Source of the DNA: Magnetospirillum fulvum MGU-K5 | GTDB taxonomy: Bacteria > Pseudomonadota > Alphaproteobacteria > Rhodospirillales > Magnetospirillaceae | DNA: 64,000 nucleotides | Direction of reading: 5' to 3' | Assembly (NCBI RefSeq): GCF_000442515.1 | Contig: NZ_AQPH01000002.1 | Location: forward strand, 1 to 64,000 | Shown: positions 36,772-39,628 of the stretch, piece by piece | Layout of the letters: every line of letters begins with the position of its first letter | Position numbering within the stretch: position 1 is the first letter of the stretch | Program-made: the position numbers and the translations under genes | The notes under the pieces: model-generated | Databases searched by the model: none | What the model saw: the letters and a program-made list of their open reading frames with translations, nothing else | Told to the model about the DNA's origin: nothing

Positions 36772-37938
36772 ATGAGCCCGGCCTCCCCACCGGACGGCGT
36801 GGTGATCGTCGGCAGCGGGTTGGGGGGCTATACCCTCGCCCGCGAGCTGCGGCGGCGCGACGGCACGGTTCCGATCACCGTCATCAGCGGCGATGGCGGC
36901 GAATCCTACAGCAAGCCGATGCTGTCGGCCGCCTTTGCCCAGGGCAAAAGCCCGGCCGATCTGGTCCAGAAAAGCGCCGCGCAGATCGCGTCCGACCTGT
37001 CGATCCGGGTGATGACCCGTCATCAGGTCGAAGCGATCCATCGCGACCGTCGCCGCCTCACCCTGCGCCGTCCCGACGGCACCGGGGGCGAAATCGGCTA
37101 TGAGCGACTGGTGCTGGCGATCGGAGCCGATCCCCGTCCCTATCGGGTCGAGGGCAGCGCCACCGCCGGTCTGTTCACCGTCAACGATCTGGACGATTAC
37201 GCCGTCTGGCGCGAGGCGCTGGCCCCCGCCAGCCGGGTGTTACTGATCGGGGCCGGGCTGATCGGCTGCGAGTTCGCCAACGACCTCTTGACCGGCGGGC
37301 ATGGCGTAACCCTGGTCGATCCCGCCCCCTGGCCGCTGGGCCGCCTGCTGCCCCCCGAATTGGGCATGGCGATGAGCGCGGCGCTCGGCGGGGCCGGAGC
37401 CACCCTTCACCTCGGCCGCTCGGTCACCGCCTTCGCCCCCGGTCTGGCGACGCTCGACGACGGCAGCCAGATTCAGTTCGACCGGGCCCTGACCGCGATC
37501 GGGCTGATCCCGCGCACCGCGTTGGCGGCAACCGCCGGACTGGCGGTGGCGCGGGGGATCGTCGTCGATCGTCTGCTGCGCACCTCGGACCCGGCGATCT
37601 TTGCCCTGGGCGATTGCGCCGAGACCGAGGCCGGTCCCCTGCCCTACATCGCCCCGCTGCTGGCCCAGGCCAAGGCACTCGCCGCAACCCTGGCCGGGAC
37701 CGAAACACCGCTGGTGCTGCCCGCCTTGCCGGTGGTGGTCAAGACTCCAGTCCTCCCCACCACGGTCTGTCCTCCGATACCGGGGGCCGAGGGGCATTGG
37801 CGGATCGAGGGCGAGGGCCAGGATCTGAAAGCCCTGTTTGTCGCCCCCGACGGCAGCCCGCTCGGTTTCGCCCTGTGCGGCAAGCGGGCGAGCGAAGCCC
37901 GCACCCTGGCCGCCCAGATGCCGCCCCTGCTGGGCTGA
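36772..37938 (+). CDS. rubB: Rubredoxin reductase-like FAD/NAD(P) oxidoreductase
   Basis: This 388-residue two-dinucleotide flavoprotein has an N-terminal FAD fold (VVIVGSGLGGYTLARELRRR, about residues 10-29), a second NAD(P) fold (VLLIGAGLIGCEFANDLL, about residues 155-172) and the FAD-contact motif IFALGDCAE near residue 278. Adjacent rubredoxin makes NAD(P)H-rubredoxin reductase the likely role. Rubredoxin systems in such organisms serve oxygen or radical detoxification or hydroxylases; the acceptor here is unknown. Confidence 0.85.
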   Translation: MSPASPPDGVVIVGSGLGGYTLARELRRRDGTVPITVISGDGGESYSKPMLSAAFAQGKSPADLVQKSAAQIASDLSIRVMTRHQVEAIHRDRRRLTLRRPDGTGGEIGYERLVLAIGADPRPYRVEGSATAGLFTVNDLDDYAVWREALAPASRVLLIGAGLIGCEFANDLLTGGHGVTLVDPAPWPLGRLLPPELGMAMSAALGGAGATLHLGRSVTAFAPGLATLDDGSQIQFDRALTAIGLIPRTALAATAGLAVARGIVVDRLLRTSDPAIFALGDCAETEAGPLPYIAPLLAQAKALAATLAGTETPLVLPALPVVVKTPVLPTTVCPPIPGAEGHWRIEGEGQDLKALFVAPDGSPLGFALCGKRASEARTLAAQMPPLLG

Positions 37939-37950
37939 CCAAAACGGTAC

Positions 37951-37982
37951 GGGGCGACCCACCAGGAATGGGCGGTCGCCCC
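37951..37982. repeat. Intergenic palindrome after rubB
   Basis: GGGGCGACC (37951-37959) pairs with GGTCGCCCC (37974-37982). There is no T-run. It may assist termination or be a dispersed repeat. From here to the ornithine decarboxylase leader (about 38110) I see only an AT-rich, promoter-like stretch around 38085-38126, including TATATA at 38121. Confidence 0.4.
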
Positions 37983-38126
37983 AAACCGCCCCTACAATCG
38001 ATGGGGGGAGGGCGTCGACCCGTTTTGACCAGGGCATTGAAAACAAAGAACAACCCTGCGGGCTTTGTGAAATTTTGACGCAGCGGGATTTTTTTGTCTT
38101 TTCCTGGGACAAAAACAGCGTATATA

Positions 38127-38497
38127 GCGGCTTCAGGTGAGACGTACAGCGCACGTGCCTCTGACCAACGTTATGGTCAGGCAACGACGTCAAAGGCGTC
38201 TTCTGGGTGCAAGCGGGCTAAACCCCCGTGTGCTTGGAGGAAATCTTATGATCGCGATTGCCCGGCACGCTTTGGCGTCGTCCGTGACCACTATTCCCAA
38301 ATCACAGGAATTCAAGCCTCGGCAGGCCTGGGCTCTGCTCTGGGTTGATGTCCGAAGTACGTCCAAACGGGACTGACGGCACCCCTTTTTCCGTGCCGTC
38401 AAACCGTCGTCTCCGACTCTGCCTGCCCGGCAGAGGACGGGGTTTCGTCGCCATCTGTCCTGTTCAAGGACCCGATGGGTCCGTTTGGAGCTTTGCC
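38127..38497 (+). promoter_or_regulatory. Long structured leader of the ornithine decarboxylase gene (speF-leader-like)
   Basis: About 370 untranslated bases precede the decarboxylase ATG. They hold a hairpin TGCC..TGACC/GGTCAGGCA (38157-38184), a well-placed 42-codon ORF (38248-38376), a perfect 9-bp hairpin TGACGGCAC/GTGCCGTCA (38374-38382/38393-38401) that includes the ORF stop, a larger hairpin (CTCTGCC/GGCAGAG with outer AAACCGTC/GACGGGGTTT, 38401-38443), and GGACCC/GGGTCC just before the TTTGGAG ribosome site. GACGG occurs at 38375 and 38436, and CCGTC at 38396 and 38404, so alternative pairings are possible. Rfam describes a 'speF leader' upstream of alphaproteobacterial ornithine decarboxylases. 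I infer a match by position, not by search. Confidence 0.6.
38248..38376 (+). CDS. 42-residue leader peptide upstream of ornithine decarboxylase
   Basis: ATG 38248 follows an excellent ribosome site (TTGGAGG, seven bases upstream) and opens a 42-residue frame. It begins MIAIARHALASSVTTIPKSQ (20 residues), then EFKPRQAWALLWVDVR, and ends STSKRD. The frame's TGA (38374-38376) forms the first bases of the following hairpin, so a ribosome ending or stalling there would block that structure. This is the arrangement of translational attenuators such as the enterobacterial speFL peptide, to which I see no sequence similarity. Expression is inferred. Confidence 0.55.
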   Translation: MIAIARHALASSVTTIPKSQEFKPRQAWALLWVDVRSTSKRD

Positions 38498-39628
38498 ATG
38501 ACCGCCAAGATCGCTCGCTTCCTCGAAGAAGTCCGCCCCGTCACCCCCTGCGTCGTGGTTGATCTCGATGTCGTGCGAGACAATTATCTGGGGCTGCGCC
38601 GCTGGCTTCCGCTCGCGGACGTCTATTATGCCGTCAAGGCCAACCCGGCTCCCGAGATCGTGCGGATGCTGGCCTCGCTGGGATCGAATTTCGATGTCGC
38701 CTCGCGCGGCGAGATTGATCTGTGCCTGTCGAGCGGCGTTTCCGCCGACAACATCTCATTCGGCAACACCATCAAGAAGCAGCGCGACATCGCCTACGCC
38801 TACGAAAAGGGCGTCCGCCTCTATGCCTTCGATTGCGAGGCCGAGTTGGAGAAGCTGGCCGAATCCGCTCCCGGCGCGCGGGTGTTCTGCCGCATCCTGA
38901 TGACCTGCGACGGGGCGGAATGGCCGCTGTCGCGTAAGTTCGGTTGCGAAATCGACATGGCCCGCGACCTGCTGATCCGCGCCCGCGACCTGGGCCTTGA
39001 CCCCTATGGCGTGTCGTTCCATGTCGGCAGCCAGCAGACCGACCTCAAGCAGTGGGACATCGCGGTCGGCAAGGCGGCGATGCTGTTCACCGCGCTGGAT
39101 TCCGCCGGAATCGACCTGCGGATGGTCAATCTCGGCGGCGGCTTCCCCGCCCGCTATCGCAGCGACATCCCGGCGGTCGAGCGGTATGCCGACGCTGTGA
39201 TGAGCGCGATGACCAACCATTTCGGCAACAACATCCCGGCGATGATCATCGAGCCGGGCCGCTCGCTGGTCGGCGATGCCGGCATCCTGGAAACCGAGGT
39301 CGTGCTGATCAGCCGCAAGGGCTATGACGACGACACCCGCTGGGTCTATCTCGACGTCGGCAAGTTCGGCGGTCTGGCCGAAACGATGGATGAGGCGATC
39401 AAGTACCGCATCCAGACCAGCCACGACGGCGACGATACCGCCCCGGTGGTGCTGGCCGGTCCGACCTGCGACTCGGCCGACATTTTGTACGAAAAGACCA
39501 ATTACGAAATGCCGGTCAGCCTCAAGGTCGGCGACAAGGTCCGCATTCTTTCGACCGGGGCCTACACCACTTCGTACTCGGCGGTGAATTTCAACGGGTT
39601 CGACCCGCTGAAGGCTTACTTCATCTAA
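38498..39628 (+). CDS. speC: Ornithine decarboxylase (alanine racemase-fold type)
   Basis: This PLP enzyme makes putrescine from ornithine. The 376-residue length and alanine racemase-like barrel fit the eukaryotic-type (fold III) decarboxylases of Alphaproteobacteria. The PLP lysine is Lys47 in YYAVKANPAPEIV, the phosphate loop is in VNLGGGFPARY, followed by IIEPGRSLVGDAG, and the catalytic cysteine is in GPTCDSADIL near residue 325. The ATG at 38498 has TTTGGAG upstream. Some family members also accept lysine; the substrate call is by similarity. Confidence 0.9.
   Translation: MTAKIARFLEEVRPVTPCVVVDLDVVRDNYLGLRRWLPLADVYYAVKANPAPEIVRMLASLGSNFDVASRGEIDLCLSSGVSADNISFGNTIKKQRDIAYAYEKGVRLYAFDCEAELEKLAESAPGARVFCRILMTCDGAEWPLSRKFGCEIDMARDLLIRARDLGLDPYGVSFHVGSQQTDLKQWDIAVGKAAMLFTALDSAGIDLRMVNLGGGFPARYRSDIPAVERYADAVMSAMTNHFGNNIPAMIIEPGRSLVGDAGILETEVVLISRKGYDDDTRWVYLDVGKFGGLAETMDEAIKYRIQTSHDGDDTAPVVLAGPTCDSADILYEKTNYEMPVSLKVGDKVRILSTGAYTTSYSAVNFNGFDPLKAYFI

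Follow-up and report, generated by a model that had tools for sequence, protein, structure and literature searches.

The window analysed here is a stretch of 64,000 nucleotides (nt) from Magnetospirillum fulvum MGU-K5 (contig NZ_AQPH01000002.1, positions 1 to 64,000), and its feature of interest is the leader of ca. 360 nt between the presumed transcription start and an ornithine decarboxylase (ODC) gene. The gene itself (38498-39628, + strand, as are all features of the leader) starts with ATG at 38498 and encodes a protein of 376 amino acids (aa) with the Pfam domains Orn_Arg_deC_N and Orn_DAP_Arg_deC. From 5′ to 3′ the leader holds a structured RNA element (38140-38241), a leader open reading frame (ORF) of 42 aa (38248-38376, MIAIARHALASSVTTIPKSQEFKPRQAWALLWVDVRSTSKRD), a hairpin starting in the stop codon of this ORF (hairpin 1, 38374-38401) and a short hairpin just before the Shine-Dalgarno (SD) sequence of the ODC gene. 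The leader as a whole (38120-38510) folds with a z-score of -3.9, and none of 100 shuffled sequences folded equally low. It is probably a divergent ODC leader of the ar45/speF type, working as a two-stage device in which a polyamine riboswitch gates a leader ORF that is coupled to ODC. The original prediction for this locus had described the ORF and the hairpins and missed the RNA element, which is the most conserved part of the leader.

We assign the 5′ element as the form that the ar45/speF-type ODC leader takes in the Magnetospirillum group. Its conservation exceeds that of the ORF, with 58 of 120 alignment columns invariant over 28 sequences, while the hairpin tips vary. At E ≤ 0.1, a covariance model of the element (R1), built on an RNAalifold structure that differs from the P1/P2 structure adopted later and finding relatives mainly by sequence, has matches in 34 of the 385 class genomes; these extend to other families and include a second copy in the M. 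fulvum genome. The aligned matches share CGCACGUGCC, a variable hairpin, GYAACGACG or a near form of it, and then a strand able to pair with the SD of the next start. In the structure adopted, P1 (38141-38200) joins GACGU (38141-38145) to GCGUC (38196-38200), P2 (38154-38186) joins CGUGC (38154-38158) to GC(A)ACG (38181-38186), and P3 (38162-38179), lying within P2, joins UGACC (38162-38166) to GGUCA (38175-38179). Across 62 related sequences, 98.4% of the alignment cells are paired in P1, 100% in P2 and 88.1% in P3, the P2 value being partly so by construction because the search pattern fixes most P2 positions. Two pairs of P1 carry double changes in these sequences, and P1 to P3 together hold four doubly changed pairs against 0.8 in shuffles, of which 1 in 500 reaches four. 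Furthermore, a U-A pair of P2 is doubly changed to C-G in 2 of 93 rows (two named leaders) with no mispaired row, and G207, an element-like match of a degenerate pattern, also has C-G there. The 93 rows are those of alignment A4, out of 125 distinct segments; since MAFFT misplaces the 3′ strand of P1 in its Magnetospirillum rows, P1 was counted on alignment A6 (62 of 125), which is without the Magnetospirillum rows, L221, L222, L257, L273, L274, the large-insertion leaders and others.

Downstream of P1, a predicted stem over the SD of the leader ORF (38200-38240) would pair CUUCUGGGUGC (38200-38210) with GUGCUUGGAGG (38230-38240). The SD that follows the element is paired in the predicted folds of 111 of 117 distinct elements, compared with a mean of 65% when the stretch from core to SD is shuffled. 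A conserved structured leader followed by a plausible expression platform, the latter predicted from folding, is one mark of a riboswitch, and it is present at this locus.

The core of the element was sought as CGCACGTGCC-N(14-44)-GYAACGACG (exact search pattern CGCACGTGCCN{14,44}GYAACGACG) and has 70 occurrences, spread over 59 of 385 alphaproteobacterial genomes, the reversed control giving 2 matches. A sample of 200 genomes from the phylum holds it in five, all of them Alphaproteobacteria (reversed pattern, 1 match). Three of the 70 places lie at contig ends (63, 159 and 179 nt past the core start), leaving 67 testable. All 67 lie 164-418 nt before, and on the same strand as, a gene for a close ODC (50 places), a distant ODC-like decarboxylase (11) or a homospermidine synthase (6). 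Both ODC and homospermidine synthase genes belong to the polyamine pathway. In the fetched DNA, homospermidine synthase comes next in 15 of the 61 ODC or ODC-like places, and ODC comes next in 5 of the 6 homospermidine synthase places. The 11 ODC-like decarboxylases (L216, L218, L219, L224, L241, L247, L266, L269, L271, L277, L278) are ca. 30–34% identical to the window ODC, with four followed by homospermidine synthase and two by ODC; the two scanned against Pfam have ODC-family domains, and none of the four scanned against NCBIfam reaches a cut-off.

The second copy in the M. fulvum genome (L256) stands before the gene of a 467-aa protein whose match to homospermidine synthases of solved structure has an E-value of 3e-181. 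Its leader (L256:242-553) has the same architecture, namely the element, a 17-aa ORF ending KSM and an inverted repeat at the stop; the ORF ends AAA AGT ATG TGA and is followed by the inverted repeat CGGCGG/CCGCCG. Of the 80 named ODC loci that are nearest to that of the window, 77 are testable and 71 have the core, the core-bearing records including ones from Magnetospirillum, Paramagnetospirillum, Telmatospirillum, Ferrovibrio, Zavarzinia, Parvibaculum, Magnetovibrio, Azospirillum and Nitrospirillum. The six loci without the exact core comprise a paired C-G variant (L134, L153), one changed base (L149), a longer insert (L168), a very short insert (L115) and L150, which has no core and in which the DNA upstream of ODC is the end of another decarboxylase gene. 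A sample of 96 genomes, 34 of which have ODC at 35 places in all, gave 15 places directly after an exact core, one (G140:C222) further downstream, three after a core with a longer insert and four after look-alikes recognised by eye (G065, G090, G094, G148). A degenerate core pattern run over 270 genomes returned 52 lines, seven of them chance-like (4 C-G, 3 C-A), and 18 in the reversed control. Two divergent ODC leaders, L291 (G065) and L292 (G148), hold CACGUACC or CACGUGCC together with GGYAACGAGG, with a P1 of CGCAC/GUGCG seen by eye in L291, and probably form a further branch of the element as judged from these motifs.

A scan with the speF leader model, as the original prediction had proposed, was negative: RF00518 (gathering score 37 bits) has no match in the window, none at E ≤ 10 in 37930-38560 and none in the M. 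fulvum genome. RF02347, the ar45 model (40 bits), likewise gives nothing below E 10 in 37930-38560 and no match in the genome, and the leader of the M. fulvum homospermidine synthase matches neither model at E ≤ 10. Across the class, RF00518 matches 11 of 289 genomes, nine of them above the cut-off, and RF02347 matches 7 of the 59 core-bearing genomes under stricter filters that lost some weak matches; at 20 loci found with R1, no Rfam family apart from one tRNA reaches its gathering score. Under a wider definition of the ar45/speF leader set up in the present analysis, a core of CGCACGUGCC ... GYAACGACG within P1 and before an ODC-type or homospermidine synthase gene, the window leader belongs to the group. 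The RNA modelled as ar45 holds the same CGCACGUGCC ... GCAACGACG core inside its P1, whereas that P1 is GCCC/GGGC rather than GACGU/GCGUC and its insertion is larger. The speF leader resembles the present one as an alphaproteobacterial ODC leader, with conservation that starts near the putative transcription start (Corbino 2005, PMC1273637); it differs in that the Rfam model begins 3′ of the shared core and in that the available portion of the 2005 description has no leader ORF. In three leaders (L032, L302, L036) an ar45 match lies directly 5′ of a speF match. Because the ar45 core adjoins the speF match in Rfam-type leaders, these alignments indicate that Rfam splits one leader into two models, which cover one branch.

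An observation on ar45 itself may be added. In the Rfam ar45/speF-type leaders (L031-L034, L036, L038, L232-L234, L258, L262, L275, L276) a U run stands directly after P1 (GCCC/GGGC), resembling an intrinsic terminator formed by the element. According to the accessible parts of the literature, an ar45 transcript separate from the speF leader occurs in Bartonella and S. meliloti, with Hfq co-precipitation in S. meliloti. This separate transcript could be the attenuation product of such an element terminator.

The 42-codon leader ORF of the original prediction was found as described, with its ATG at 38248, TGA at 38374-38376 and the SD GGAGGA (38236-38241) 6 nt before the ATG. A peptide search over 55 genomes of the family returned 30 loci, one per genome, and ODC is directly downstream in all 30. 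An ORF with an SD and a D.RS-type motif was recognised by script in 28 of them, and a related ORF was read directly in the other two (L063, L100); a profile search adds G017, G023 and G025, each with ODC downstream, and the leader ORF precedes ODC in at least 33 of the 55 genomes, the search of the remaining ones having given no match. Only ODC-linked matches were counted, larger tallies (94 of 248 for the profile, 49 of 55 for a loose peptide search) being mostly chance.

Within 24 aligned peptides M1, W32, D34, R36 and S37 are invariant, and one member of a wider peptide set (L110) is without the W. The original prediction had held that selection on the peptide should be visible as synonymous-site bias, which is the case at the C-terminus and not in codons 2-20. 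Pairwise pN/pS is 0.36 for the seven codons of W.D.RST and 0.57 for the 14 C-terminal codons, but rises to 0.94 in codons 2-10 and 0.95 in codons 11-20 (24 sequences, including one false member, L164, as for all codon counts in this paragraph). The rare codon pair CGA-AGT (Arg-Ser, 38353-38358) is fixed at the nucleotide level, Arg being CGA and Ser being AGT in 23 of 24 rows with the false member as the exception, while the Asp codons are 13 GAC and 11 GAT. The low pN/pS, the split Asp codons and the fixed Arg and Ser codons therefore point to selection on the end of the peptide and additionally on the codons CGA-AGT. A profile of the peptide run over 248 genomes of the order finds 25 places at E ≤ 2.6e-6, all in the own family, the next at 0.005 and no convincing relative outside. 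The peptide is also unlike speFL, as had been supposed: a speFL-type peptide (DUF2618, core HIRRT) was rejected on the lack of any Pfam or NCBIfam family match, Pfam at E ≤ 10 giving only DUF2256 at a sub-cut-off 0.15 and NCBIfam nothing.

At its 3′ end the ORF enters hairpin 1, the stop codon lying in the first base pairs of a perfect 9-bp stem, as originally described, of TGACGGCAC (38374-38382) with GTGCCGTCA (38393-38401), at -14.2 kcal/mol and z -6.4 (200 shuffles). Over 21 related sequences 91.2% of cells are paired against 86.0 (sd 0.8) in shuffles, a figure lowered by the window row and L119, which look misaligned. Double changes are present in four of seven pairs (1.8 expected; 16 of 500 shuffles reach four) and in 10 cells (2.3 expected; 0 of 500 shuffles), and sliding the register drops pairing to 16–66%. 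The stop hairpin is thus real and kept by compensatory changes. When folded, all 20 Magnetospirillum-type leaders have a base-paired stop codon, with a mean z of -1.7 against 0.1 just upstream. The segments GACGG (38375-38379 and 38436-38440) and CCGTC (38396-38400 and 38404-38408) do each occur twice, and they had been taken to allow hairpin 1 to be exchanged with a hairpin 2 (38401-38443). Hairpin 2 lies in a variable, unconserved region and is recognisable only in the closest species; the alternative pairings were rejected as confined to these species and not conserved in the family alignment.

The fixed AGT of the Magnetospirillum peptides has a wider counterpart. Leader ORFs that follow the element are mostly unrelated across families, yet often have an in-frame AGT near their end. 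After removal of ORFs with identical ends (99 to 86), AGT is carried by 20 of the 21 Magnetospirillum-type ORFs, where 0.67 would be expected, and by 41 of the 65 others, where 1.85 would be; the expected numbers derive from codon use in the ODC and homospermidine synthase genes, where AGT makes up 50 of 3310 Ser codons at the same loci, and understate the relaxed codon use of leader ORFs. Because codon use is relaxed in this way, the argument is carried by the in-frame excess and by position. Within the last 24 nt of the 65 other ORFs, 41 AGT triplets are in frame and 4 are out of frame; AGT is more frequent than any other codon among the last seven, and for 40 of 57 AGT codons the distance to the stop is 2-6 codons. 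These counts are not independent, since the ORFs are related within families, and the choice of ORF was mechanical (first ATG with an SD-like stretch), giving the wrong ORF to L103 and L125 at least and a few ORFs that end beside or inside the ODC start. A second group of ORFs (L238, L253, L261, L263, L120, L125, L153, L282-L285) ends in (G-R-x-N-P-L-)S-S-M/I/Q/L or S-S-M-R-A-P-D, unlike the W.DVRSTS of Magnetospirillum; the second Ser codon is AGT, which in L125 lies in a frame other than the one chosen by script.

These features may be combined into a mechanism, in which gene association and leader architecture together suggest product feedback, and in which the ligand, the switching, the direction of control and the roles of AGU and Rho are as we infer them. 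As its first stage, the folded RNA (38140-38241) would most likely bind a product of the pathway, a polyamine and perhaps homospermidine. The bound polyamine would stabilise the element and keep the SD of the leader ORF closed, and the untranslated leader RNA would then hide the ODC ribosome site or lie open to Rho. As its second stage, at low polyamine, the leader ORF would be translated by a ribosome that is slowed at the rare CGA-AGU and ends at the stop inside hairpin 1; by keeping the downstream RNA open, or shielded from Rho, this ribosome would allow ODC to be made. That a leader ORF can be linked both to Rho and to the translation of speF is shown by Salmonella orf34 in the text available (PMC6386406). 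Of the original interpretation, the conserved leader ORF and the compensated stop hairpin are supported; the sensor, however, more probably resides in the upstream element, which shares its core with the ar45 plus speF leader, than in the peptide by itself.

A number of observations weigh against the two-stage device. The covariation rests on few changes, as P1 and P2 are nearly invariant and most sequences share one P1, and the paired cells overall barely exceed those of shuffles (95.5 vs 94.9%); pairing of the SD is also frequent in shuffles, at the rate given above. The element is missing in recognisable form from 12 of the 35 ODC places in the 96-genome sample, and the 11 ODC-like decarboxylases are without an assigned substrate. 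At ca. 30 loci the element sits directly on the decarboxylase start with no leader ORF, so that the second stage is absent there. Some members of the family, too, do without the peptide, G014 having the element and ODC but a different ORF of 33 codons. Outside the Magnetospirillum group the stop hairpin is weak, with the stop paired in 34 of 66 leaders and a mean z of -0.8 (flanks, -0.3 upstream and 0.1 downstream). Furthermore, 24 of the 65 other ORFs have no AGT, and the relaxed codon use of leader ORFs lifts other rare codons as well (AGA 27-fold, AGG 16-fold, and CGA too). Finally, the portion of Corbino 2005 available reports no binding of six metabolites to the tumefaciens speF RNA (PMC1273637); homospermidine is absent from the compounds that this portion lists as tested.

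The lack of metabolite binding also suits a reading in which a protein rather than a metabolite binds the 5′ element, blocking or exposing the ribosome site of the leader ORF, as does a core that is strongly conserved yet short. This reading is nevertheless rather unlikely, given the riboswitch-like pattern of invariant joining nucleotides with variable hairpin tips and given the first genes, 56 of 67 being ODC or homospermidine synthase and the other 11 ODC-like, as product feedback predicts. We consider it unlikely, too, that the leader peptide is the sole sensor, in the manner of speFL, with nascent W.DVRSTSKRD stalling the ribosome together with ornithine or arginine, the stop hairpin relaying the signal and the 5′ RNA only setting initiation. 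The invariant W, D, R and S, the purifying selection at the C-terminus, the stop codon within a conserved hairpin and the example of Salmonella orf34 (PMC6386406, as far as its text was available) all agree with such a sensor; on the other hand, the 5′ RNA exceeds the peptide in conservation and, by far, in distribution, the profile search stays within the family, and other families carry unrelated ORFs in this position, or none. A primarily trans-acting small RNA merely located before ODC is improbable, for although Rfam classes ar45 as a small RNA (sRNA) and the separate, Hfq-precipitated transcript mentioned above would fit one, the 67 testable copies keep their place and strand before polyamine-type genes, two copies precede two different genes in the M. 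fulvum genome, the element runs into a stem covering a ribosome site, and an attenuated leader would equally give a separate short transcript.

The proposed riboswitch-gated leader ORF may also be set beside other known systems, each compared through the available part of its publication. The odc1 motif (PMC8632094) is likewise an alphaproteobacterial ODC leader with a hidden ribosome site and a conserved upstream ORF, but it has two UUG starts two nt apart and an ORF of 11 aa, against one ATG and 42 aa here; on this comparison by description, rather than by RNA core sequence, the present leader falls outside odc1. The speFL/orf34 system of gamma-proteobacteria (PMC6386406) shares a leader ORF before ODC with special codons and a hairpin past the stop, and its coupling to Rho and speF translation is like that proposed here, whereas its peptide is unrelated and an aptamer-like RNA lies 5′ of the ORF in the present case. 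The spermidine riboswitch, a variant of the SAM aptamer (PMC10853860), is an RNA controlled by a polyamine as well; its aptamer is a different one, and the portion of text available never names speF, homospermidine or ornithine decarboxylase. No description of an association between homospermidine synthase and the element was found in the literature as judged by title and start of abstract, with few subscription papers covered.

The remaining features frame the leader. A -10-like promoter sequence, TATATA (38121-38126), is conserved in the family alignment, and the transcript probably starts near 38133-38140, as placed from sequence; a consensus scan of 37930-38560 finds no sigma-70 site. The same interval has no terminator-like site on the + strand, that is, no hairpin with a U tract such as an intrinsic attenuator would have, and an intrinsic terminator in the leader was rejected. 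The hairpin originally proposed at the decarboxylase ribosome site is present, a stem GGACCC/GGGTCC (38468-38482) standing just 5′ of the ODC SD, UUGGAG (38485-38490), with the two together spanning 38468-38490, and similar short stems were seen by eye in several relatives of the same genus in the family alignment. The closest solved structure to the window ODC is the lysine/ornithine decarboxylase 5gjm (E 1.5e-62), and the nearest named ODC, at 97% identity, is that of Magnetospirillum fulvum, own-genome records possibly being excluded from this comparison. In this genome the reading frame of ODC stays open upstream as far as 38345, shifted by one base relative to that of the leader ORF, which is probably chance; a frameshift fusion of leader ORF and ODC was rejected because the spacing from leader stop to ODC (86-127 nt) falls in all three frames among relatives. 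Upstream, on the same strand as ODC, lies an ORF at 36772-37938, followed 3′ by an inverted repeat around GGGGCGACC...GGTCGCCCC at 37943-37983, seen in sub-threshold alignments and possibly marking the end of its transcription.

Compared with the Rfam models and the literature covered, which takes in the later speF update (Greenlee 2018) through a passage of PMC7266159, two features appear to be new, namely the element's place before homospermidine synthase genes and the leader ORF with its AGU. More broadly, and as a tentative proposal, the ar45 sRNA and the speF motif may be fragments of one homospermidine or polyamine riboswitch class found across the Alphaproteobacteria, the output of which would often be a small ORF rather than the enzyme itself; the rare AGU serine codon of this ORF, usually two to six codons from its end, would serve as a second checkpoint, based on the ribosome, for ODC and homospermidine synthase alike. 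The in-frame AGU in otherwise unrelated leader ORFs is an unexplained signal at the codon level. To our knowledge, speF has lacked an assigned ligand since 2005. Its link to homospermidine synthase and the 5′ half missing from the Rfam speF model now offer a direct ligand candidate and a full-length construct, and what is catalogued as the sRNA ar45 may represent an ODC leader that has been attenuated.
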